Below, piece after piece: positions 2,805 to 18,880 of a DNA stretch of 64,000 nucleotides. Numbering within the stretch: the first letter of the stretch is position 1; the number at the start of each line of letters is the position of its first letter. Both the position numbers and the translations under genes were made by a program. The stretch is from Tritrichomonas musculus (lineage: Eukaryota > Parabasalia > Tritrichomonadida > Tritrichomonadidae): NCBI GenBank assembly GCA_039105265.1, contig JAPFFF010000003.1, positions 7,192,001 to 7,256,000 on the forward strand. Reading direction: 5' to 3'. The notes under the pieces are model-generated. The model saw nothing but the letters and a program-made list of their open reading frames with translations, searched no databases and was not told where the DNA came from.

Positions 2805-4087
2805 TTAAGATAATAAAATATAAGATAAAACGAATTGAATACAAAAAAATTGAATAAATAAAGCATTGAAATCTTGTTCGTCTTTCAATTTTAATTATCG
2901 ATAATCAAAACTCGAATAATTAGAAAAATAATGTTTATTTATTTATTATTTGGATTCTTATATTACGAACCATATATGAACTTTTGATTAACCATATAGA
3001 ATCGTTAAATATAAATAGAAATAGAATTCTTTTTTTTCAAAGTTTTATATTTCAGGAATAATAAAGATTATTGGGGTTCACAGTGTTGTAGACTGTAAGT
3101 TAGAAAACCTTGAGTTCTGAATTTTCAACGTGCTTTTTCTCGGTTTTTAATATTTTATGATTTCTAATTTACATTAGAATAGATAGTTATATAATTATTT
3201 AATCTTTTCGATAGAAAAAAAAATAACCATTCATTTACTTACTTTTTTAAGTTCACTTTGACTTAAAGACTCTAACAGAGTAGACTAAAATTTCAAAAAA
3301 GAGGTTTTTTGTTAAATCCTTTATAAGATAAAAAGACGCAATTGTGAACATCATTATTTGTTAATTTTGAAAAGAAATATCTAATAGATCTTTAGAAAAA
3401 TTCTATTTTAATCAGCCACATTATTACCTATTTTTTAAGTATAGATGGATTTATGTCATTTATCTAATATTAAATTATGCATTTATTATGAATTTTTATA
3501 TTAAAAACGCATAATTCAAATTATTATTAAGATATTTATATTTTTAAAAATGTTTGATTAAAAATTGTATAATAAAGATTGCCCCTATCTTAGATCTTTT
3601 TATCATTATATAAAGAATCCTTTATTATATAATTTTATGTTATTTATTTTTTCAACTTATTAAAATTTTTTATTCTATTCAATTTTTTCAATACATGTTC
3701 AATAAATTTCATAAACCTCATTCAAATAATACGATATTTTATATATTAGCATAATATTTTATATTTTTCAGAAAATTGGCCCAAATTTATCATTAGTTGT
3801 CAATATATATTATTATATAAATATATTAAAATTAATTTAAATATATAATTTGATGTATTTACTTACCAATTTTCAGATATAATTATTTTTTATACATTTA
3901 ATTCAATTTAAATTTTTCATCATTGAAAACAATTCAATGTATAATTTTGCTATTAAATCAATAACAAAAGAAATATAAAATTAATAAAAAAAGAATATAT
4001 ATATACAAATCTATATTTTTCAAAAAAAAAAAAAATATCTATTATATGCATTATAAATTGTCTATAATTTATTTAAAATAAAAAAAG
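2805..4087. other. AT-rich intergenic DNA, no gene seen
   Basis: No coding-like frame and no repeat of note. The stretch is AT-rich with poly-A/T runs and ends at an abrupt shift to higher G+C where the gyrase-like fragment begins. Confidence 0.7.
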
Positions 4088-4089
4088 GT

Positions 4090-5720
<1,631 letters not shown>

Positions 5721-5846
5721 TAATGGGTTAAAATTAACCCGATATGTACCCCTTATAGTAACCAATCGATTTTGATCCAAAAATAAGCCATTTTCAGTTG
5801 AATCTAATGCGAATATAGATGATCCGATATCGATGCTGTTATCGTT

Positions 5847-5975
5847 CAACTGTTAATGATGCTGTTAATGATCGATTGTTAATGATCGATTGTTAGTGAT
5901 CGACTGTTATCGGTTCATTGTTAGTGATCGACTGTTAAGGGTTCATTGTTAGTGATCGATTGTTATCGACAATAT
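5847..5975. repeat. iteron-like direct repeats, TGTTARTGATCGA unit
   Basis: At least five copies of a 12-14-bp unit, consensus TGTTAGTGATCGAC/T, lie head to tail with partial copies reading TGTTATCG. They sit beside a gene for an SF2 helicase with virus-like character. Clustered short repeats next to a replication helicase resemble replicator iterons or origin-binding-protein sites. That function is inference. Confidence 0.6.
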
Positions 5976-6235
5976 GTATCCACATATGATGTATCCGCAT
6001 ATGTTGCACCTGTATATGATGTATCCGATGATGTATCCTCATATGTTGTAATCGATAAGTTATATACGCATGTGTTGTACTCGAATAAGTTGTATCCGCG
6101 TATGATGTAATCGCATATGATGTATCTGTATATGATGTACTCGTTAATGATGTATCTGTATATGATGCATCTGCATATGTTGTCATCGATAATGATGTAT
6201 CTGTTTATGTTGTATCTGTATATGATGAACCATCC
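5976..6235. repeat. degenerate tandem repeats of ATGTATCYGYATATG type
   Basis: A run of imperfect units built on GATGTATCTGTATAT and TGTTGTATCCGCATAT spaced about 12 bp apart. This is a satellite-like tract adjoining the iteron field. No function is evident. Confidence 0.6.
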
Positions 6236-7412: not shown

Positions 7413-9362
7413 TCACTTCTTCACCAATTTATACACTCGACCTTGTTTACCGTTAACTCTGTTATATCTCATATTAACTTCATACCCATCTGGTATTGTC
7501 TTAATATCGATTCCATAATAGTTGTATAGATCTCTTTTGGTAGTAAATTCTATATCAACGATAGGTTCATTAACGACATGTTCATCAACGATAGGTTCAT
7601 TAACTGGTTCATCAACGATAGGTTCATTAACTGGTTCATCAATGATAGGTTCATTAACGACATGTTCATCAACGACATATTCGTCAACGATAGGATCATC
7701 AACGATAGGTTCATTAACGACATGCTCATCAACGATAGGTTCATTAACGACATGTTCATCAACGATAGGTTCATCAACAGATTCATCACCATCAACTGGT
7801 TCATCCGCGGTAGCGGAGTACGAAGTATCATTCTCTTCGAGAACTTCACTTTGTGAATCGTCATCATCAGTAGATTTACCGAATCGTACACGACCAAACT
7901 CATATAATGCGACATTTCAACCTGTTTTGCTCATACAATTCCATGCTCTATCACGCAGTTCGTTTAAGTATCTCTCATATCTGTTGTTCGGTATCGAGTA
8001 CTTTCTCTTGTTCATGTGTTTACCATATCGAACATATACATATACATCCGAGTTTCGATTTCGGTTTCGACCTAGAAACTGTTTAACACTGGATACAGTA
8101 TCGATATATGTTTGGACGAATACAGATAGAATATTCTCTTTAATGGACTGTCCATTCTGTATAGATGAGGTAGATATAATAACATCAACGTCTTCGTCGA
8201 ACAAACCATCTTCATTCAACTTAATCTCTTTGGTATCACCTGTGTATAACGCAACCTTGTATCTATCTTTCAACATCTCTTTCAACAACTTACATTATTT
8301 CTTATCTTCGATCTTAATTAATACTTTATCGTAGTTCATTCGCTTTGTATCAATTAAGTTCACTATCTCAGCTCGTTGTTCATCAGCATCTGGTATCAAC
8401 TTGTTAACGTATATATTTCGATTGTATCTCTTATCGATACACGGATTAACGATTATGTAATCTCTGAAACACGCGAAGTGTTTAATATCGTCAGCAGTAG
8501 CACTTATTAACGCAACCTTATCGAACTCTTTAGTAATCTCAATCAATCCAATATGTTGTAGTAACATATGTGCTTCATCAATCACTAGAAAGTAATCTAA
8601 TCGTTGTTCGTTCATGTAGTATTCTTCAATTAGATCCCCTAAACATTTCGAAGCTGTGTTGTATGTAGTAATAATCACATTAACTTCATTGTGTACAGCT
8701 TTGTGAAACTCTTTAAACGCATTATCGTTAACACACAACCGAATGGAATTAACATCCATATCATTCAACTTGGTATAGAACTCTTCAGCGATATTCACTG
8801 TTGGAACTATAACCATAAACCTCTCTGTATTATGCGATGCAATCCATTTACGAATCGCTGTCGATTTACCAGAACCGATTGGAGCTTCACAGATGAACTT
8901 CTTGGTCCGGATTTGTTTAGTGATCTTACGTAAATCATACTTGTTGTGATCCATACAATAATAATAATCATCATAATCCATATAATCGATTACATTGCCA
9001 TTCTCATCACAAAGTTCTAGTTCATCATCGATATTTACTGGCGGTTCACCATTAGTTAGGTGTTTAATCGATGTTTCATCTTCTAATGGATGGCCGTTCT
9101 TATCGAAGTAACCTTCACACTGTATAGTGTATAATCGTTCAGGGATCTCATCAAACATCTGCCATCGAATATATGACGGATCATGGACTTCTTCTGGTGT
9201 TGGTATTGGTTCGATTTGTTGTTTCAATGGATCATCGTCATCACGGAAATCATTTATAGACATGGATTTCATACCTTCATATACGTGATCGTATAACATA
9301 GTGTTCAGTGTCATTGGTTTCATTCGGAGAAAATTTTCATGTAATTCACATACCAAATCCAT
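7413..9362 (-). pseudogene. virus-like SF2 helicase interrupted by two stop codons
   Basis: A continuous frame of 650 codons broken only by TAA at 8297-8295 and TGA at 7919-7917. Superfamily 2 motifs are in order: Walker A EAPIGSGKST (about residues 160-168), motif II FLVIDEAH (about 259-265), motif III ISATA (about 287-291), then past the first stop DVIISTSSIQNGQSI (motif V) and QFLGRNRNR (motif VI). An acidic repeat tail of DEPIV-DEHVVNEP units (DNA repeats 7554-7800) and a basic C-terminus ending GRVYKLVKK follow. The layout resembles replication or origin-binding helicases of large DNA viruses rather than host helicases. Both stops are single substitutions away from sense codons and neither is accompanied by an indel. 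Readthrough is possible but recent inactivation is simpler. Confidence 0.8.
7554..7800 (-). repeat. tandem repeats encoding acidic DEPIV/NEPIV tail
   Basis: Short units reading ATCAACGATAGGTTC/ATTAACGACATGTTC on the plus strand repeat about a dozen times. In the helicase frame they encode alternating DEPIV, NEPIV and DEHVV pentapeptides. The other frames give spurious Met/Ser/Leu-rich open frames that are not genes. Confidence 0.85.
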
Positions 9363-9597
9363 CGTTTATACATATAGTCATTCATTATATGCTACAATAG
9401 TCATTCATTATCTGCCACTATTAGTTCTACTTTATTGGACACAATCTCGATAATGTCGTATATGAGTATAGCTATGGAATTGTTTAGAAACGGTTTCATA
9501 TTAATATAGCCGATTTCGCCTATTATAATAGTTTATTTAGCCATTATTTTAGGTTATCGCTATTAGTATTGTCATATATAGACATATATCCATAGTC
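9363..9597. other. helicase upstream region with short tandem repeat
   Basis: This is the non-coding 5' flank of the helicase gene. A 21-22-bp unit containing ATAGTCATTCATTAT occurs twice at about 9374-9410. The segment ends in AGTCTTGTG at the insertion point of the capsid-encoding element, so the helicase promoter may lie here. Confidence 0.5.
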
Positions 9598-9602
9598 TTG
9601 TG
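9598..9602 (+). repeat. target site duplication TTGTG, left copy
   Basis: TTGTG at 9598-9602 directly precedes the left inverted repeat and recurs at 18582-18586 directly after the right one. Five to six bp is the duplication size made by Maverick/Polinton (retrovirus-like) integrases. Confidence 0.85.
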
Positions 9603-10039
9603 AGTAGTATAGGGTAGGCGCGTTGGGCCCCCAGATATTTTGAGCTTCAAATATGACCCCAAATCCCAAGGACAACTAGACCATTTTCAGGGTATGGCTT
9701 ACTCGGTCCAAAACCCCGTGTAAATACCCATTTTGAGCCCCTTTTTTACGATTTTCATTTTTGGATCCTAAGTGTTTCTCACGCATGAAAACCATACAAA
9801 AACAACGTTTGTGAGAGTAGTTGACGACATATCAATCACGTGTTTCACGCATGAAAACCATACAAAAACAGCGTTTACGGGCGTCTGGAGAGATGTCGGA
9901 AGGGACTAAATATGAGTGAAAATCACGTGAGTGATAATTAATACACGATAAATCAGTTATGGAGATTTGATGGTGTTTTAATAGGTATCGAGAGGACCCC
10001 CAGATATTAAGAGGTGTTATACAGTATAAGATTCGTGAG
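9603..10039 (+). repeat. left inverted terminal repeat (437 bp)
   Basis: Begins AGTAGTATAGGGTAGGCGCG and ends GATTCGTGAG. It matches the reverse complement of 18145-18581 over its whole length with about five substitutions and no net length change. Inside are two copies of a motif containing CACGCATGAAAACCATAC (about 9780 and 9846) that may be subterminal binding sites. Open frames within the repeat are shadows. Confidence 0.95.
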
Positions 10040-10105
10040 ATTCTCATCTCCCATATGTATCTCAATGAGTTTAGGGTTGATATTTTTTTTATCACATATA
10101 AAATA

Positions 10106-11188
10106 ATGAATTTCGATGAACCCAATTATGATGAATCAATTGGTTTCGATGATCTTAGAATTTTGTGGAAACACTTGAAGAGACTTGCTCATATGATTGA
10201 TATCCCTAACGATACCATTAACGAGGTATACTCATCGGTCAAACGTGATCATAACATCACTGGTGTTATCACTAAAGCTCAATTTAAAGAGATAAAACGT
10301 CCACTATATAATCAAATCTCTGAACTCATAGCTGATAGAATCCTTGATCTCGGTTATGATGGTAACGATAAATTCATGTCTATGTATAGATTCGCTCAGG
10401 GATATCAATCAGGTAAGCAAAAACGTGAAGATAATAAATTCTTTAAAGATTTACGTTTACATCCTATCATTCAACATGATCCATTATCGAAATTAGTGAG
10501 AAATATGCTCGGTAAGAAGTTCACCGATAATATTAATAAAGAGAGTTCTCAGGTAAAAACATCGAAAGTGAATTATCGAATGATGCTCGATAAACTCATT
10601 ACTGAGAGACCTATCCTTCGTCCTCTTCCACCAGGTGAAATGCTTGAGTTGAAACCCTATTCGATACAACTTTTCGAGAAGAATAATGAAGATTTAATCG
10701 ATTATTTCAAGACTTTCGGGCATGACTTCAAGAGTAAGAGCGATGAGTACCTCACCATCAACGAACCTAACGATGAAATTAAAGCTCTTGCTGCGTTTCG
10801 TAATAAGAAATATCATGGAACTCATATCGAAAACAAGATTCTGAAGAAGAATCCAATCGTTTTTTATTACTTGAATGAGATTCATAAGCTTGAAGATATC
10901 TTCAATTACCTTGAAAATACTGTATATAAGAACGAACGTAAACCCTTTAAGATAACATTTAATCTCAGTGGTGTATTCGAAACTCCTAAAAATAACGGAG
11001 ATTTCATTACTGAATACATATATGAAGAGCGTGAGATAAACACCACAAAATATAATAACGATAACAACATACCTATTCTGATTCAGTTAAACGATGAACT
11101 CAATAGAGTGAAATATTATATCGAATCTGTGCTCTTCAATTACTCAACAACTGAATCGATTCATACTTGTTATCGGACTCGGATTTAG
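10106..11188 (+). CDS. element protein of unknown function (360 aa)
   Basis: An intact frame just inside the left terminal repeat, transcribed inward. The frame is open to a Met at 10055, but the Met at 10106 (MNFDEPNYDES) is preferred because the upstream part lies beside the repeat and is hydrophobic noise. The protein is charged. Its C-terminal half contains KPFKITFNLSGVFE and IPILIQLNDELNRVKYYIES, looking like a beta-rich domain followed by a helix. The 3' end overlaps the convergent fibre gene by 53 bp. No family recognised. Its position and the capsid context suggest a virion or assembly role, which is inference. Confidence 0.75.
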   Translation: MNFDEPNYDESIGFDDLRILWKHLKRLAHMIDIPNDTINEVYSSVKRDHNITGVITKAQFKEIKRPLYNQISELIADRILDLGYDGNDKFMSMYRFAQGYQSGKQKREDNKFFKDLRLHPIIQHDPLSKLVRNMLGKKFTDNINKESSQVKTSKVNYRMMLDKLITERPILRPLPPGEMLELKPYSIQLFEKNNEDLIDYFKTFGHDFKSKSDEYLTINEPNDEIKALAAFRNKKYHGTHIENKILKKNPIVFYYLNEIHKLEDIFNYLENTVYKNERKPFKITFNLSGVFETPKNNGDFITEYIYEEREINTTKYNNDNNIPILIQLNDELNRVKYYIESVLFNYSTTESIHTCYRTRI

Positions 11189-12707
11189 AGTATCGGTTAC
11201 TGAGTTTGTTGTTGAGATCGTTGATGGATGTGGTGAATGATGTTGTCGTCACGTAGTTACTGAGGTTGTTGTTAGTTAAGGAGAGCTTGTCATCAACTTC
11301 TTTCTTTGTGTATCTGTTGTTTAGGGATGTCGTCAATGAATTGATATCACTAGTATGCTTCGTTGATGTAACGAACTTGTTATCGACTTCACTCTTTGTA
11401 TACCTGCTGTTGATGGAGTTGTTGATAGTGGATACCTTGTTATCGATCTCGCTCTTGATGTATCTGTCACTGAGTTCGTCATTGATATCGCTAACGGTTG
11501 TGGTGAATGATGATGTCGTTACGTAATTATTGAATTTATTATTCGTTTATGTGAGTTTATCATCAACTTCTTTCTTTGTATATCGATCTGTAAGTGATGT
11601 ATTGAGATCGCTTATCGATGAATCGAATGATGTCTTCAACACATAATCATCGAATTTATTATTTATCGGAATGAGTTTATCATCAACTTCTTTCTTCGTA
11701 TATCTATCACTGAGATCTGTAGTTATCGATCCAACATCACCAATGAGCTTATCATTAATAGGTTTGAGTTTATCATCAACTTCGGATTTGGTATATCGAT
11801 TATCAACAGCAGTATTCAATGAGTTGATTTCATTAGTGAGTTTTTCATTAACATCATCGAGATCGACTTTACATGCCATAGTATTACTTATTGATGATAC
11901 ATCGTTAGTGAGTTCATCAACATCAGTTTTCAGTTGAGTGATATCAGTTGTATTCTTATTGATTGAAGGTTCGAGTTCATCATCGATACAAGCATTGATA
12001 TTCGTTATCATCTCAATAGCTAGTGCCATACCATCATCGAGAATCTCAATTCGTTTATCATGCTTGAGAGTAATCAGATGAAGTGTTTCATCATTGTTTT
12101 CGAAATGAACGAGTGATTCATTAAGATTAGTAATCATGGAATCCATTGCAGCGTTTACATCATCGACAGTGACTTCAACAGGTGGTTCATCAATGATTTC
12201 ATCTTCAACGTCATTAGCGAGTAAGTCGATATCTCTAGTGATTATTGTTGGTGATTTCTTTATCGATGCATGTGTAGATGTTGTTGAAGGTTGATTATCG
12301 ATATTGATATCGGGATGAGTGCTGAGATGTTGATCTAGAGTGTCTGATACCTCAGTTATTTTTTCAATCAATGCATTCTCTACTTCATAGTGCACCCCAT
12401 CGATTTTATTCACAGCTGCAGCTATTTTATTATTACTATCACTCAATGACATGATATTATTCATTACATCATTCATCGATGTGGGTTCATCATCAATCAT
12501 CACAATAATATCATTATCGAATATCGGCGTTGATTTAAATGTAACACTAGCTCCATCGAAGTTCTCAAAACGAGTGGGTCCATCGAAAGTTGCATCGTGA
12601 TACACATGTAATGTATTCAGTAATCCATTGATATCACCGGTACCTCCACCACCTCCACCTACAAGAGCTTTATCTATAGCATTCTGTTTCGTTAATATTC
12701 CAGTCAT
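11136..12707 (-). pseudogene. tail-fibre-like repeat protein with one nonsense codon
   Basis: A 524-codon frame interrupted once, by TAA at 11549-11547. The N-terminus has a run of six glycines (LVGGGGGGTGDING) and a short beta-rich head-like segment. The rest is a predicted elongated coiled shaft with repeated NRYTKKEVDDKL / DRYTKSEVDDKL units (at least seven), a motif seen in phage and giant-virus fibre or receptor-binding proteins. The part beyond the stop keeps the repeat register to the end (SKSESDNKYES), so loss of frame is recent or the stop is read through. Likely a capsid-vertex spike. The upstream product alone is 386 residues. Confidence 0.78.
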
Positions 12708-12812
12708 GTATGTTTCATCGATGTTAAAAATAGTAGATATGCATTCATGCTAGTGTAGTTCGCTTCATCCACGTAGTGGACTTTGCTTCGCAAATGAATC
12801 GCTGATGAAAAT

Positions 12813-13142
12813 TCAATATTCAAGTTTCAAGAAAAGCGTGAAATTATCAGGTTTAATCTCTTTACCTTCAGCATCAGTGAACCACACTTTAAAGGTATTT
12901 TTACGTGATATAATTTCGTACTTGCGATTATCATCAGGAGGTGTTAAGTTCGCATACCACACTAAGGAATCACAGTATTCATCACGTGGAACGAATGAGC
13001 AATGGACTTCAGTTTCACCATCGAGATAGTGTTGACAAGTAGCTCTACAGTATTGAAATGATATGTATCGATCATTCGATGAGTTAACGAATTCTGGAGG
13101 TAATGTATTCTCATAATCGCGAGTGATGAAGTATGTTTTCAT
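12813..13142 (-). CDS. small element protein, possible minor virion protein (109 aa)
   Basis: An intact 109-residue frame between the fibre and capsid genes on the same strand. Alternating hydrophobic/polar stretches (YISFQYC, EVHCSFVP, FKVWFTD, FTLFLKLEY) suggest a small all-beta fold. Several Cys residues are present (YCRATC, EYCDS). No family is recognised. Its place within the structural gene cluster suggests a capsid-associated role. Confidence 0.65.
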   Translation of the reverse strand: MKTYFITRDYENTLPPEFVNSSNDRYISFQYCRATCQHYLDGETEVHCSFVPRDEYCDSLVWYANLTPPDDNRKYEIISRKNTFKVWFTDAEGKEIKPDNFTLFLKLEY

Positions 13143-13166
13143 CGTTGGTTCTGTGGATTGATTGTT

Positions 13167-13316
13167 TTATACTTGACGTTCATAATCATCAATGACTCCA
13201 TCACCGTTGATATCCATCGCTTCATCAAATGTATCACCTCGATAAGGATTGATGTTGAAACCAGTGATTCTCTTGATTGGGATTGAATGAAATTCTCGTT
13301 GCGAGTATGTCGACAT
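13167..13316 (-). CDS. 49-residue protein with EF-hand/dockerin-like Ca-binding loop
   Basis: A small frame in the 240-bp gap between the 109-aa gene and the capsid gene. The start at 13316 reads MSTYSQREFHSIP and the end reads DINGDGVIDDYERQV. The loop D-I-N-G-D-G-V-I-D-D-Y-E fits the DxNxDGxIDxxE calcium-binding pattern. Spacing and strand match the neighbouring structural genes, and a second such loop occurs in the gene at 17175-18050. Confidence 0.65.
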   Translation of the reverse strand: MSTYSQREFHSIPIKRITGFNINPYRGDTFDEAMDINGDGVIDDYERQV

Positions 13317-13381
13317 GTGTTTCATTCACGTTAAAATCGAAAAATATATCATTTAATGTATGTGTCGATGATGAGATTCAT

Positions 13382-15106
13382 TTACTCATAACCTGTTGGA
13401 ATTCCACGAGGATGATACTTAACACCTCCATCGATACTCCAACTCCACCATGTATCACTACAGATCCACATCTCAGGTGCTGGTGGATGAACATCTTTAA
13501 CGACAGTTCCATCATCGAGGGTATCTGGATAGAAATATGTATCGTTTTCACCTCCATGAATAGGTAATCCCTTGAATGTAACGGTGACTGAGTGACATCC
13601 AGTATCGATACCGTCGAAAACATATCCACTATTTCCACGTTCGAGTTGGAAGTTGATACCGAATGATGTGTTATCAGCAGCTGATGATGATTTATATCGC
13701 TTACCTGTGGATTCATCATTGAGTGCGAGAGAGAAAGATCTAACGAGTTTATCAGTAGCTTCAATGCATCCATCGAGTTCGTTAGCGATGAGTTGATGTT
13801 GAACGAATCTTCCATCATATGTTGTTTCGAATTCGGTATCGGGGTACTGTTTCTTGTTGACAGTGAGTTGACAGTTGCGATACATAATGTTTTGGAAACA
13901 TGTGATATCACCTGGATGACGAGGGAACATGAGAGTGATATTAGTAGCGTTGCGGAGAGGTATTGATTTAGAGACATCAAGTCCGCTATTACCCTTAGCT
14001 GAGCCCTCGAAAATCTCACGAGTGAGCTCTTGTGATGGAATGATGATTGGATTCTTTAATATTTCATATAATCCCTTCATAACTTCAGGTTTAACTCCGA
14101 ATCCAGCACAGTTAGTTCTAGCGACAGTGATAGTACCTGTATTTGCAAGTTGAAGAGTAATGAATTTAACGGTCCATACATTACCGACACTATCACCTGA
14201 TAGAGCTTTGAATTGAGTGTTAGTATCGAATGTATCTTCAGCGACGTTGTTAGAGGAAATAACACTGTGTACTATCTTTGCTGGCATATTGATTTGTGTG
14301 AAGTGAGCTGTGATTGGGAGATACCATGGAGTGTTATATTCACCTGCTGGATCATAATCCATGAATTTCAATACATCAGCAACAGCTGTAGGATTTACTT
14401 GACACCAAACGAGTGCTTCTAATGATGTGCGAATTTCTTCTTCAAATTCACCGAGGATTCGATTGGGATAGAGTCTCCATGCTTGTAATGCGAGTTGATC
14501 TGTGAATGGGATGATGAGATCGAGTTTAACATCAACAGCTTTACCACCTTCGAAATTCGATAACGGAATGTAAACACCACACTTGCATGGCATGTAATTC
14601 ATAACGTTTTCCCATATGGAATGAGCATGAGGATTAGCTGCTTTAGCATCACGAGCTTTAATAGAATTGTAAGCAAATGATTCGCGAATGAGTTCATCTT
14701 GACGATATGTATCAATGAGTTTACCGTTAACCCAGAACCTACAGTCTTCAATGAATTCAACAGCATCTTTAAATCCGATGAATATACGATTCAAACCTTC
14801 TGAATCACGTAATGAAATATCACCTTCTTTAATATCGTTTTGAAGTTTTACCTTGAATTCAACTGTTGCATTGATGAACCCCTTTTCGATTTGACTGATG
14901 GTGTGTCCGCTGTGTGTGAGCTTCAAACGTGTTTTAGTACCGACGGGCATAGGTACATCTTTATTCTGAAACTCTTCAGTGACGAATGAGAATGTATTAT
15001 CCCCACCGTTTTTCTGTACGAGATTTCTGAGTGTATCGTTAAAGAATTCGAGAATATCACCTTCATCATTTCCGCTGTTTTTGAATTGAGCGTTCTGATA
15101 TGTCAT
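13382..15106 (-). CDS. major-capsid-like protein (574 aa)
   Basis: An intact 574-residue frame, the largest in the element. Features typical of double-jelly-roll capsid proteins of Mavericks and polinton-like viruses: beta-rich throughout, an N-terminal helical arm (FFNDTLRNLVQ), and a central GVYIPLSNFEGG...LIIPFTDQLALQAWRLYPNRILGEFEEE segment that resembles the conserved hinge of this family. The length also fits the family range. The C-terminus is acidic and Trp-rich (MWICSDTWWSW). Upstream of the ATG lies GTGAACCCAA. It would assemble the icosahedral shell with the 15186, 17175 and fibre products. The call rests on motif resemblance and gene context, not a search. Confidence 0.82.
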   Translation of the reverse strand: MTYQNAQFKNSGNDEGDILEFFNDTLRNLVQKNGGDNTFSFVTEEFQNKDVPMPVGTKTRLKLTHSGHTISQIEKGFINATVEFKVKLQNDIKEGDISLRDSEGLNRIFIGFKDAVEFIEDCRFWVNGKLIDTYRQDELIRESFAYNSIKARDAKAANPHAHSIWENVMNYMPCKCGVYIPLSNFEGGKAVDVKLDLIIPFTDQLALQAWRLYPNRILGEFEEEIRTSLEALVWCQVNPTAVADVLKFMDYDPAGEYNTPWYLPITAHFTQINMPAKIVHSVISSNNVAEDTFDTNTQFKALSGDSVGNVWTVKFITLQLANTGTITVARTNCAGFGVKPEVMKGLYEILKNPIIIPSQELTREIFEGSAKGNSGLDVSKSIPLRNATNITLMFPRHPGDITCFQNIMYRNCQLTVNKKQYPDTEFETTYDGRFVQHQLIANELDGCIEATDKLVRSFSLALNDESTGKRYKSSSAADNTSFGINFQLERGNSGYVFDGIDTGCHSVTVTFKGLPIHGGENDTYFYPDTLDDGTVVKDVHPPAPEMWICSDTWWSWSIDGGVKYHPRGIPTGYE

Positions 15107-15176
15107 TTGGGTTCACATAAAAAAATCGGAAGTACTGTTGATGAACTAGCATTGAATAAATCACTTTTTATTCCCA

Positions 15177-15186
15177 ACTCAAAATA
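15177..15186 (+). promoter_or_regulatory. initiator-like ACTCAAAAT before the 15186 gene
   Basis: ACTCAAAAT lies directly before the ATG. The same ACTCAAA sequence abuts the start codons at 15600 (15592-15599) and 18050 (minus strand, 18051-18057). It resembles the trichomonad initiator TCA(Y/A)WWWWT, suggesting host transcription machinery starts just upstream of these genes. Confidence 0.5.
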
Positions 15187-15503
15187 TGGCGTTCGGAAGT
15201 TGGTTGAAGAATCTCGGTAAGAAGATAGTTAATGGATTCAAGAAAGTAATACCCATCGCAAAAAAAGTAGGTAAAGTCGTTAAGAATACCGTAGCTCCAA
15301 TACTCGGAACTATAGGTAATGCTATCGGTGGTAAAGCTGGGAAAGCACTTGATATCGCAAGTAGCATCACCCGTACTGCAGCAGATAAAGCTCTCTCCAT
15401 CACTGATAAAGTCGATAACTACATCAAAACGAATGGGCGTTCAGCGATGGATGATTGGATAGCTCATGAGAGAAACCTCTCAAAACACCTCGTAATCCCC
15501 TAA
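15186..15503 (+). CDS. small basic amphipathic protein, pVI/membrane-lytic-like
   Basis: A 105-residue protein with a strongly basic, amphipathic N-terminus (MAFGSWLKNLGKKIVNGFKK), a Gly/Ala hydrophobic centre (APILGTIGNAIGGKAGKAL) and a helical C-terminus. It lies divergently from the capsid gene. In adenovirus and polinton-like viruses the gene near the capsid gene often encodes such a lytic or cementing protein. That role is inferred from composition and context only. Confidence 0.62.
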   Translation: MAFGSWLKNLGKKIVNGFKKVIPIAKKVGKVVKNTVAPILGTIGNAIGGKAGKALDIASSITRTAADKALSITDKVDNYIKTNGRSAMDDWIAHERNLSKHLVIP

Positions 15504-15599
15504 ATAAACGTGTTTGATAACGATTGATAACGATTGAATATTTATGAAATCATTCAGAAATTATCATTAATAATTCACTATTTTTATTAACACTCAAAC

Positions 15600-15953
15600 A
15601 TGGATGTTAAGATTATAGAGCCCATCACACATTACATTAAAGAATTCGATACGCCTAACGACTTCGATTCATGGTATAAGTCCCATCAAGAAGAGCTTGA
15701 TAAACTCACCACTCACAAACTCAACAAGATGTATCACATCAACGGATATCGCATCACGCGTATCAAAGGTGTATTATCACTCAAGAAAGCACCTCGAAAA
15801 TCAACTCCTAAAGATGATATCATCACTGATAATTCAGAGAACGAGCAGCGTTTCATAGCTATCGAAAATGAGATATCAGATATGTCTGAAGATATCAAGA
15901 ATATTAAGATTGCTTTAAAATCTATAGAGAACTACTTCTCAAACCTCGAATGA
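15600..15953 (+). CDS. element protein with YRITRIKG motif and coiled coil (117 aa)
   Basis: An intact 117-residue frame. The N-terminal half has TTHKLNKMYHINGYRITRIKG, a compact motif that looks conserved, followed by a Lys-rich linker and a C-terminal coiled coil (about residues 80-117, ENEISDMSEDIKNIKIALKS). It stops 1 bp before the convergent ATPase stop codon. An ACTCAAAC sequence precedes the ATG. Function unknown; the coiled coil suggests oligomerisation. Confidence 0.65.
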   Translation: MDVKIIEPITHYIKEFDTPNDFDSWYKSHQEELDKLTTHKLNKMYHINGYRITRIKGVLSLKKAPRKSTPKDDIITDNSENEQRFIAIENEISDMSEDIKNIKIALKSIENYFSNLE

Positions 15954-15954
15954 G

Positions 15955-16815
15955 TTATAATTGAATGAATGTTTCGCCACCGTCAATCACTTGAATTACG
16001 AGATATGGATGAGAGTCGGGATACTCATTCTTTAACGACATGATATTCTCATATTTTTCATAGAAATCATCGAAACAGAGGTTAGAAGCTGATTGACTAT
16101 AGATATATCGCAATTGTTGTTTATTGAAGCATGGGAATATGAATAACGTAGTGATTTCGTTTTTGATATGAGGTTTGAGTCCCTTCCATCCCTGAATCAA
16201 GAGAAAGAATGTCATATTCGTATGTCGACAACGACGTAACAATTGCGAGAAATACGATGTTTCATTCGTGAAGAGTTTGCTGTTACTGATATCATCAAAT
16301 AACACAAGTGTATGAAGATACTTTTTATCGAAATCATCAATGTGTAATGTATTGAATAACCCCTCAATATCTCTCTTCGTGATGTTTAATTGTGGATCGT
16401 TGAGCATGTTTTCGAGATGATTATTCTTAATGGAGTAATACTCATTCTTCGATTTAATGATTTTCTCGATAGTTTTCTCAGCATCGTATTCACTCACAGT
16501 TATTATCGGTAATCGAGATTCTATTAAAGATTTCAATGCTAAGAAAGATCTATCACTTTCATTCCCATCTTTAGTAACATAAACGAGTAGATGATGAGTA
16601 TTCATTAACGATATTTTTATCACCTCTTCCAGAGCTATCACAGTCTTCCCCTGCCCTTGTTTACCAACGATTACATTAACTGAATTATATCTCACGTTAA
16701 TCTCAGGATGTATCTTATCGATGAATGCTCCACACATATCTTTCTTCTTACTCGTTAATACCTCATTCACTTTATTTTTAACGATATCGTTTAACGATAT
16801 ATTCTCAGGTATCAT
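15955..16815 (-). CDS. genome-packaging ATPase, FtsK/HerA (A32-like)
   Basis: An intact 286-residue protein. Walker A is VIVGKQGQGKTVIA (about residues 48-61), Walker B is HTLVLFDDISNS (about 166-177), followed by an arginine-containing segment LLRRCRHTNMTFFLLIQGW and a C-terminal PCFNKQQLRYIYSQ. This order matches the A32-like packaging ATPases of Mavericks and nucleocytoplasmic large DNA viruses, which drive DNA into preformed capsids. It is next to the capsid module, as in Mavericks. All catalytic motifs are present. Confidence 0.85.
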   Translation of the reverse strand: MIPENISLNDIVKNKVNEVLTSKKKDMCGAFIDKIHPEINVRYNSVNVIVGKQGQGKTVIALEEVIKISLMNTHHLLVYVTKDGNESDRSFLALKSLIESRLPIITVSEYDAEKTIEKIIKSKNEYYSIKNNHLENMLNDPQLNITKRDIEGLFNTLHIDDFDKKYLHTLVLFDDISNSKLFTNETSYFSQLLRRCRHTNMTFFLLIQGWKGLKPHIKNEITTLFIFPCFNKQQLRYIYSQSASNLCFDDFYEKYENIMSLKNEYPDSHPYLVIQVIDGGETFIQL

Positions 16816-16865
16816 GTTTATGAGATGTAAAAATATATATCACAACAGCATCATTCGTATCCCAC

Positions 16866-17165
16866 TTACTCTTCAGGATAAGTAATTCCAGGCATTGGAT
16901 AATCGGGATCTATTGGGGCATCTTCATCAGCGTCATCAGCTAATCGAGCATCAATATATGTATCTGATGGTGGTGGAATAGGACGAGCACCGAATTGAGA
17001 TGGCGAAGCATTACCTTCGAGATACATACTAGCATCGTTAGGTACAGCCCTTACACCACCTACTGCTGTGTTTATTTCGCTAACGATGAAATTAACGACT
17101 CCATCATAAGCATGAGTATTCGTGTTATCTTTAAATGCTGATATCATTGAGCGTACCATATTCAT
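16866..17165 (-). CDS. small element protein of unknown function (99 aa)
   Basis: An intact 99-residue frame between the ATPase and the 17175 gene. The N-terminal half is helical (MVRSMISAFKD). The C-terminal half is Pro- and Asp-rich (IPPPSDTYID, DEDAPIDPDYPMPG), suggesting a disordered acidic tail. No family recognised. It is probably co-expressed with its upstream neighbour, 9 bp away. Confidence 0.6.
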   Translation of the reverse strand: MNMVRSMISAFKDNTNTHAYDGVVNFIVSEINTAVGGVRAVPNDASMYLEGNASPSQFGARPIPPPSDTYIDARLADDADEDAPIDPDYPMPGITYPEE

Positions 17166-17174
17166 AGTAGATGC

Positions 17175-18050
17175 TTAACCGTTTTCACTACGTTTCAGCT
17201 TATCGAATTCTTTCTTAGTGAGTGTGTTATGTGGATCTAATGCTGATTTAAGTGATTGATTCCATATCTTTGATGAGAGTTTACCGATGAATTTCAACTT
17301 CTCAGGACCCGTCAATGCACGTCCGATACCACCTTCAACGATTGCAGCAGCATCATCAAAAGCGGGTTGGAAGAGGTATTTCTTGAAGATCGCGTATGCC
17401 GATAAATTCTTAGGTGCTGTCGATGTGTATCGCTTACTATTAACTGCATCTTTATAGAATGGGAAGTTCTGATCGTAGTAACTAGTATCGAGGCGAACTC
17501 TACCAACATTCTCAACTAAGTCTTGTGATGTAGCATCATCGTAACCGAAGTATTGAGGATTGAATTGATCGCGAAGGAAATCTCTCTTACTATATACTTT
17601 AACTTCATTTCCGTGAGCATCAACATGTGATTTACCTCGCTGATTTCTTACTTGTGCACGTGCTGCCCTTGTTGGAAGTGCTGTGTTATATACTAAATCG
17701 TCAGCCCATTCACTCTTCTTTGTAGTCCATCCGTTAACGATTAATGGATTACCACGTTTATCATAAACGATGACATCAGGGATATCATCACCATTAACAT
17801 CAGTGAGATTCGCTAATACTGCGGGACCGTTGGGATCACGCTTATTCAAGTACCATGGTGAGTTAGGTGATGATCGATTGTGTTTCTGTATCATAGCTTC
17901 AGCGTTTTGTGGAGCGATAGCACTCTTAACACGTTTAACATCACGTTTGATATCGAGAACTATATTCATCAATGAATCCATACCAGGTTTCTTCTCAGCA
18001 GTTACTTGCTTAGGAGTATATCGCAATTGAGGGTAATTTTGTTCTGTCAT
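17175..18050 (-). CDS. element virion-like protein with Ca-binding-loop motif
   Basis: A 291-residue frame using the Met at 18050 (MTEQNYPQLRY), preferred over the upstream Met at 18092 because an ACTCAAA initiator-like sequence abuts it. About residues 84-93 read DVNGDDIPDV, a dockerin/FG-GAP-like calcium loop, followed by VIVYDKRGNPLIVNGW. The C-terminal region is basic and helical (FKKYLFQ, KLKFIGKLSSKIW). It lies just inside the right terminal repeat. Minor capsid or core protein is plausible, but no family was recognised. Confidence 0.65.
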   Translation of the reverse strand: MTEQNYPQLRYTPKQVTAEKKPGMDSLMNIVLDIKRDVKRVKSAIAPQNAEAMIQKHNRSSPNSPWYLNKRDPNGPAVLANLTDVNGDDIPDVIVYDKRGNPLIVNGWTTKKSEWADDLVYNTALPTRAARAQVRNQRGKSHVDAHGNEVKVYSKRDFLRDQFNPQYFGYDDATSQDLVENVGRVRLDTSYYDQNFPFYKDAVNSKRYTSTAPKNLSAYAIFKKYLFQPAFDDAAAIVEGGIGRALTGPEKLKFIGKLSSKIWNQSLKSALDPHNTLTKKEFDKLKRSENG

Positions 18051-18144
18051 TTGAGTCGGAATAAAAAAACAATATCCCATAATCACATTCACTAACGATT
18101 ATCCCACTGACCCCTCGTTTCACCATGCTCGTCAACGTCATTCA

Positions 18145-18581
18145 CTCACGAATCTTATACTGTATAACACCTCTTAATATCTGGGGGTCCTCTCGATACC
18201 TATTAAAACACCATCAAATCTCCATAACTGATTTATCGTGTATTAATTATCACTCACGTGATTTTCACTCATATTTAGTCCCTTCCGACATCTCTCCAGA
18301 CGCCCGTAAACGCTTTTTTTGTATGGTTTTCATGCGTGAAACACGTGATTGATATGTCGTCAACTACTCTCACAAACGTTGTTTTTGTATGGTTTTCATG
18401 CGTGAGAAACACTTAGGATCCAAAAATGAAAATCGTAAAACAGGGGCTCAAAATGGGTATTTACACGGGGTTTTGGCCCGAGTAAGCCATACCCTGAAAA
18501 TGGTCTAGTTGTCCTTGGGATTTGGGGTCATATTTGAAGCTCAAAATATCCGAGGGCCCAACGCGCCTACCCTATACTACT
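18145..18581 (-). repeat. right inverted terminal repeat (437 bp)
   Basis: Reverse complement of the left repeat with about five substitutions, for example CAGATA versus CGGATA near the outer end and a T/G change beside CCAAAACCCCGTG. It ends CCTATACTACT immediately before the TTGTG duplication. Confidence 0.95.
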
Positions 18582-18586
18582 TTGTG
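18582..18586 (+). repeat. target site duplication TTGTG, right copy
   Basis: The right-hand copy of the 5-bp duplication. Removing the element and one copy restores AGTCTTGTGCCACAAGTAG, which contains the palindrome CTTGTG-C-CACAAG. Confidence 0.85.
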
Positions 18587-18880
18587 CCACAAGTAGCACT
18601 AAATTAAATACCAAAAGAGCTGATTTTTGGGGGTTTTCGTTAATTAAATTAGCTGTCACGCGACTGTGGCGGGTATATATACTAATTTGGTCGAGGATGA
18701 CAAAAATGACAATTTTTGGTAGACTGAATGAATTAGAGTTAGGGGAGTGAGCGAAGCGAACGTGGGCGTAAGGTACGTAGTACCTGTAGCACCCCCTAAC
18801 ATAGATACTGCTTCTTCTTTATACAAATAAATAAAGGTATGGAAACTTCTATCCACTCGACAGATCATTTTTCTTTCAAT
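18587..18880. other. right flank, GC-richer segment with structured hairpin
   Basis: Unlike the AT-rich DNA beyond 18880. A hairpin is closed by GTTAGGGG (18739-18746) and CCCCTAAC (18794-18801). It contains the inner palindrome GGTACGTAGTACC (18773-18785) and GAGCGAAGCGAACG. The segment probably continues the DNA into which the capsid element inserted, and so may be the far end of the helicase-bearing element. No gene is supported. Confidence 0.5.

Follow-up and report, generated by a model that had tools for sequence, protein, structure and literature searches.

Mavericks, or Polintons, are abundant in Trichomonas vaginalis and Tritrichomonas foetus, as judged by counts of their major capsid protein (MCP) (PMC10120064). 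Degenerate copies are already known to be usual: 96% of vertebrate Maverick copies have been called defective (PMC8097293), and fragmentary and nested Maverick blocks are described in T. vaginalis (PMC7845603). Here we examine an element at positions 9603-18581 (8,979 bp) of a 64,000-nucleotide stretch of contig JAPFFF010000003.1 (C3) of Tritrichomonas musculus; we call the whole stretch the window. T. musculus is a commensal protist of the mouse gut with a 193.4-Mb genome. Its genome paper makes no use of the word Maverick (PMC11978803), and among the papers listed by our literature searches none has a title or abstract start treating deleted Mavericks of Tritrichomonas.

The element shares with trichomonad Mavericks long terminal inverted repeats (TIRs), AG ends, a short target-site duplication, a double-jelly-roll MCP and an A32-type ATPase. 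Its relatives also carry a large gene read as DNA polymerase B (PolB) and a gene for a retroviral-type integrase. The window copy differs from them in having no catalytic part of PolB, no integrase and an incomplete fibre gene. A further possible difference is that a profile search recognised no Pfam protease, cysteine protease included, among the scanned open reading frames (ORFs) of the window copy or even of its gene-complete relative C53.

Three other systems invite comparison. Non-autonomous DNA transposons such as Ds keep their ends intact, have had the coding middle removed and occur in many sizes in one genome. The window family likewise has intact ends, a lost middle and many sizes; it differs in being virus-like, with capsid genes remaining. 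Defective viral genomes carry private internal deletions, keep their ends and can in principle be complemented by a helper. The private deletions and the kept ends are alike here, as is, in principle, complementation by a helper; the window family is known as integrated DNA only. Virophages such as mavirus are complete lineages with replication genes of their own. They have the same MCP fold and an ATPase, whereas the window element is one broken copy.

How did an insertion with such good ends come to lack the genes for replication and integration? A preliminary description, made from the sequence alone, took it for a satellite-like virus genome with a capsid-only gene set, packaged in its own shell and replicated and integrated in trans. 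We agree that the element is non-autonomous, that its ends are intact and that its capsid half is so in part. Its origin, however, is very probably different: we conclude that it is an internally deleted copy of a T. musculus Maverick of about 20 kb. A satellite lineage would be expected to leave several copies of one architecture, and the junction that defines this element was found once among the best 40 of 47 candidates; the satellite reading is not supported.

The insertion and a gene-complete relative

The Maverick-type insertion is real. A left TIR of 437 bp beginning with AG (9603-10039, plus strand) and a right TIR of 437 bp ending with CT (18145-18581, minus strand) are bracketed by two copies of the 5-bp duplication TTGTG (9598-9602 and 18582-18586), just as the preliminary description had it. 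Repeats of hundreds of base pairs with AG ends and a duplication of 5-6 bp are what one looks for in a Maverick. Because the joined flanks with a single TTGTG align gaplessly to C27 (97.5% over 606 bases) and C53 (96.8% over 441 bases), and with two small gaps to C9:3.87M (92.4% over 536), an uninterrupted site exists elsewhere in the genome. (Here and below copies are named by contig, with a position added where a contig holds several.) The two arms of the window copy differ by five substitutions over 437 sites. One of these is common to C9 and C17 and the other four occur in a single arm each, which means that the insertion is not entirely recent.

The comparison that identifies the element is with C53:672337-692181, a gene-complete relative of 19,845 bp. 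From left to right it carries PolB (1952 amino acids, aa), integrase (647 aa), small genes, a fibre-like gene (1144 aa), a 179-aa gene, MCP, two small genes, the ATPase and a minor virion gene. The window copy is collinear with it to either side of one junction. On the left, window 10430-11159 corresponds to L052:1655-2384 at 96.8% identity, inside the PolB ORF. On the right, window 12486-17866 corresponds to L053:4597-10000 at 96.9%, where L052 and L053 are coordinate frames of sequence read from C53. The fibre stretch at window 11166-12177 matches C53 in pieces, at 77-94%. The junction itself (11159-11166) includes about five bases matching neither side; in C53 terms it leads from L052:2384 to L053:~3406, within the fibre gene, with 11,021 bp (about 11.0 kb) absent. 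Among the best 40 of 47 candidates, no match other than the window itself spans it.

We propose that one deletion of about 11 kb fused PolB, at roughly codon 370, to a point midway along the fibre gene. With it went the integrase, the catalytic part of PolB and a portion of the fibre gene. The capsid half would have been retained because it adjoins the right end. Such a copy would be unable to replicate or integrate alone, and any mobility would have relied on the PolB and integrase of copies such as C53, C30 and C5. The last two tie the window-type outer repeat directly to the missing genes: it matches C5 at 99% and C30 at 98%, the latter at a left end only, and both copies have integrase. 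C30 combines this outer repeat with the start of PolB, integrase DNA at 100% identity, the fibre gene and half an MCP gene.

Several observations weigh against the deletion account. The outermost 0.8 kb or so of the window type, comprising the outer repeat and the first PolB codons, diverges from C53, and window 12178-12485 does not align to it; we therefore regard C53 as a close relative, not as the direct parent. C30, the closest of the long copies that share the outer repeat, lacks a right end and was read in parts. Finally, MCP and ATPase are intact in the window copy, and their ratios of nonsynonymous to synonymous substitution rates (dN/dS) against the C15 copy are low: 0.17 for MCP (7 and 11 changes) and 0.08 for the ATPase (2 and 6). 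These ratios point to past constraint. They could mean that the capsid half was still under selection, although they may be an inheritance of both copies from full-length ancestors.

As a separate observation on C30, the copy (L055:2-4859) breaks off inside MCP and is followed by a different region with ORFs of 1365 and 248 aa, perhaps another element.

Gene content and flanks

Left of the junction lies a PolB stump, N-terminal only (10055-11188, plus strand; 96.8% DNA identity to C53 over 10430-11159). Its ORF, 377 aa when counted from the first ATG, extends a few codons beyond the junction. This is the 360-aa protein of the preliminary description. The reported lack of integrase stands, and no Pfam protease was recognised in the scanned ORFs; the lack of PolB must be amended, since a fragment is present. 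Two proteins had been considered as disguised enzymes. The 360-aa protein proves to be a genuine stump of PolB and no intact divergent polymerase or integrase, and the 291-aa protein is half of a 404-aa gene on the virion side.

The names given to the two missing enzymes rest on C53. Its 1952-aa ORF gave no polymerase match in Pfam, NCBIfam, PHROGs or PDB sequence searches. We read it as PolB from its gene position and from the sequences SLYPS, NGSYG and DTDS, which we take to be PolB motifs. Inside the ORF is an HNH or endonuclease VII-like stretch (L052:3990-4505; phrog_1035, E = 6.3e-9), situated between what are presumably the exonuclease and polymerase parts. The integrase likewise drew no identification from Pfam, NCBIfam, PHROGs or PDB sequence. 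A structural model of a 99%-identical homologue, however, matches retroviral intasomes (prototype foamy virus intasome, E = 7.4e-10), and this predicted fold supports the assignment. Three invariant acidic residues, D378, D450 and D509, which we assign ourselves, stand in the order that a DDE enzyme would have. Of the Maverick gene set, then, the window copy has a double-jelly-roll MCP and an A32/FtsK-type packaging ATPase; PolB, protein-primed in Mavericks, is a stump, and the integrase gene, present in C53, is absent.

Right of the junction the first gene is the 5' part of the fibre-like gene (11166-12707, minus strand; 1144 aa in C53). A 386-aa ORF stops at a nonsense codon, beyond which the frame is open to the junction. 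The next gene (12813-13355, minus) encodes a protein of 179 aa in C53 and C15; two nonsense codons leave a 109-aa ORF (12813-13142) corresponding to its C-terminal part. MCP (574 aa; 13382-15106, minus) is intact, as is the A32-like packaging ATPase (286 aa; 15955-16815, minus; Pox_A32, PF04665, E = 4.2e-7). Between them lie open frames for proteins of 105 aa (15186-15503, plus) and 117 aa (15600-15953, plus). The 404-aa gene for a putative minor virion protein (16866-18080, minus; 411-aa homologue P0121) is interrupted by a stop codon that leaves two ORFs, one of 301 aa (17175-18080; the 291-aa protein mentioned above) and one of 99 aa (16866-17165). It is a single unbroken ORF in C15, and by the ORF listing C53 has a split there too.

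MCP found no Pfam match, nor any match in a PDB sequence-profile search. Its AlphaFold model (predicted local distance difference test score, pLDDT, 85.6) matches double-jelly-roll capsid proteins by Foldseek (mavirus MCP, 6g44, E = 1.8e-11) and is closest to those of iridovirus, Paramecium bursaria chlorella virus 1 (PBCV-1) and mavirus, so that the identity of MCP is supported by predicted fold. The capsid and packaging genes of the preliminary description are upheld. Four genes of the window copy are open (MCP, ATPase, 105-aa and 117-aa) and four are broken (PolB, fibre, 179-aa and 404-aa). Packaging in a shell of its own is doubtful with the last three of these broken. Over seven reading frames the window-specific changes comprise 10 nonsynonymous and 5 synonymous, too few to test and with no sign of constraint. 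Together with the nonsense codons, this 10:5 ratio suggests that the copy has been decaying since insertion.

The element sits in a helicase-bearing repeat with at least 40 matches in the genome, the window included (best 40 of 153 candidates). A DEAD-box helicase ORF in this repeat (8295-9362, minus; PF00270, E = 5.6e-14) lies outside the element. In several instances two copies of the repeat (window 8807-9602 and 18587-18792) face each other in inverted orientation at a distance of 4-20 kb; they may be the ends of another mobile element. The full-length C53 Maverick is inserted in a different copy of this repeat, at a point some 40 bp away from the site used by the window element (window 18582-18627; L052:792-837 / L066:683-786); an insertion preference of Mavericks within this repeat is possible. 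Farther left, window 4082-5723 (plus strand; GC 44% over 4001-6000) contains disrupted pieces of a DNA gyrase B of bacterial type. One of them (4334-4903) matches PF00204 (E = 7.9e-32), and adjacent pieces in other frames were read as gyrB by eye.

A series of deleted copies and its timing

Querying with the outer 274 bp of the window repeat gave 30 matches across the genome, every one of the 22 candidates having been scored. Arms facing each other on one contig define seven two-ended copies of the window type: the window copy (9.0 kb), C5 (9.8), C15 (7.9), C4 (7.1), C49 (3.5), C9 (1.9) and C19 (1.3 kb). All seven have perfect 5-bp duplications. One-ended copies include C30, C22:1.2M, C17 and C5:2.33M. 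A sister repeat type, for which the best 40 of 75 candidates give a lower bound, adds at least nine two-ended copies: C53 (19.8 kb) and C22:1.82M (18.9 kb) are full length, and C1, C71, C29, C8, C12, C52 and C4:273k range from 10.8 to 2.5 kb. Internal deletions are present in 14 of the 16 two-ended copies found, at sizes of 1.3-10.8 kb. C12:4.64M is a further deleted copy with two inner arms, its ends not located. C22:1.82M, known from searches only, has integrase, the start of PolB and an MCP in which 525 of 574 residues match. The duplication is perfect in 13 of the 14 copies examined, C4:273k being the one that differs; C1 and C22:1.82M fall outside this count.

The preliminary description had allowed that other copies with these repeats might carry the missing enzymes and expose this one as a deletion, and that a full-length Maverick might share the repeats. 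Long relatives do carry PolB and integrase, and the window copy is a deletion; most two-ended copies, though, lack those genes and are themselves deleted at other breakpoints. The 22 candidates included no full-length copy bearing the window-type outer repeat at both ends, and what comes nearest is C30, with its 98% left end and its integrase. Integrase DNA of at least 98% identity over the full query occurs in at least six places (C53, C30, C5, C22, C11 and C45), with a partial match at C4:3.05M (best 40 of 138 candidates). The genome's initial search gave 2126 MCP-like candidates, of which 76 were scored. At C61:61916-143059, seven sister-type terminal repeats on one strand are spaced about 13.4-13.5 kb apart, a tandem array containing Maverick ends. 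Scans of viral contigs by MCP patterns or by a 20-base end found no relatives; such scans may omit records near the window's genome.

Did these deletions precede integration or follow it? The arms bear on this question. They are identical over 437 bp in C15, C49, C5 and C4:3.67M and over 260 bp in C19, while four comparisons between elements show 3-6 substitutions. The five insertions therefore look young though each bears a large deletion, which favours deletion before integration. Deletion would then have occurred during Maverick replication, and each short genome that kept its ends would have been replicated and integrated once, in trans, by a helper. This refinement of the internal-deletion account has, in our judgement, about an even chance of being right. 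The perfect duplications fit it. So do the breakpoints, counted in 13 copies with the complex C19 and C71 left out: the left breakpoints retain 0.8-8.6 kb, nine of the 13 falling within one 900-bp span, as if a stretch of the left end were required, and the right ones retain 0.26-8.5 kb. None of 20,000 draws from a model of two random cuts reproduced the left cluster, although the model is crude, and when the left and right spreads were compared directly the difference was not significant (p 0.10). Conversion between arms could also keep them identical. In other deleted copies the arms are unequal (C9, 1/259; C52, 1; C8, 2; C12:3.49M, 2/437; C29, 5/430), and the five differences in the window copy mean that its own deletion may postdate insertion.

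The other possibility is that full-length Mavericks inserted and later lost their middles by end joining, a reading we rate somewhat short of even. We searched for recurrence of three junctions, those of the window (best 40 of 47 candidates), C15 (39 of 39) and C52 (38 of 38); each proved unique, and none was common to two loci. Such private junctions count for loss in place; for deletion before integration they count as a point against on one weighing and as neutral on another. At most junctions the alignments overlap by 0-7 bp, which is ordinary for end joining; C5, with an overlap of 30 bp, and the window, with its unmatched bases, are exceptions. One end has been lost in C30, C22:1.2M, C17 and C5:2.33M, and deletion and rearrangement seem common in this genome. 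Loss in place would nevertheless require several large deletions in insertions too young to have gained a single arm substitution, and the 22 candidates gave no full-length two-ended copy of the window type. For the family as a whole we lean slightly toward deletion before integration.

Complementary gene losses

The deleted copies have lost different genes. C5 is the opposite of the window copy: PolB and integrase are kept, both in frames that stay open throughout the overlapping loci that were read, and the capsid genes are gone except for the start of the 404-aa gene. C15, one of the copies with identical arms, has open MCP, ATPase, 179-aa and 404-aa genes. In C1 the integrase, the greater part of PolB and the final quarter of the fibre gene are missing; its MCP is open, and what remains of its capsid side was seen in part. 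The short siblings (1.3-3.5 kb), whose ends are of the same quality, retain little or no capsid gene sequence. We conclude that the capsid half is not preferentially retained and survives where the right breakpoint chances to lie far in.

One could go further and suppose that the family persists largely as complementing partial genomes, a virus split over the host's chromosomes whose deleted genomes are made in replication and integrated in trans. The parts exist, with compatible termini throughout: the capsid side in C15, C1 and formerly the window copy, PolB and integrase in C5, and others that are close to ends alone. If this were true, the partial copies could together form, replicate and integrate particles. 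We consider it improbable.

A stable capsid-only lineage, forming particles of its own and relying on a helper for replication, is less probable still, and we hold it very unlikely. In its favour are the open MCP and ATPase, the capsid side without integrase in C15 and C1, and the existence of C5, a copy with PolB and integrase alone and with matching ends. The junctions, however, differ among the capsid-bearing copies, the window architecture was not seen a second time among the best 40 of 47 candidates, the short siblings have ends just as good, and the fibre, 179-aa and 404-aa genes of the window copy are broken. That the assembly fused two Maverick copies is scarcely credible: the genome is rich in repeats (42.67% masked; PMC11978803) and in MCP-like candidates, but it was assembled from PacBio HiFi with Nanopore reads (PMC11978803), and the element has an exact duplication, matching empty sites and private point changes.

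What looked like a capsid-only satellite virus is thus very probably an ordinary product of internal deletion, a caution for surveys that type Mavericks by the gene content of single copies. The deletion series across the family is of greater interest than the window copy itself. A graded series of 1.3-10.8 kb, with intact ends, duplications, several identical-arm copies and complementary losses, makes the production and integration of defective genomes by trichomonad Mavericks a testable proposition.

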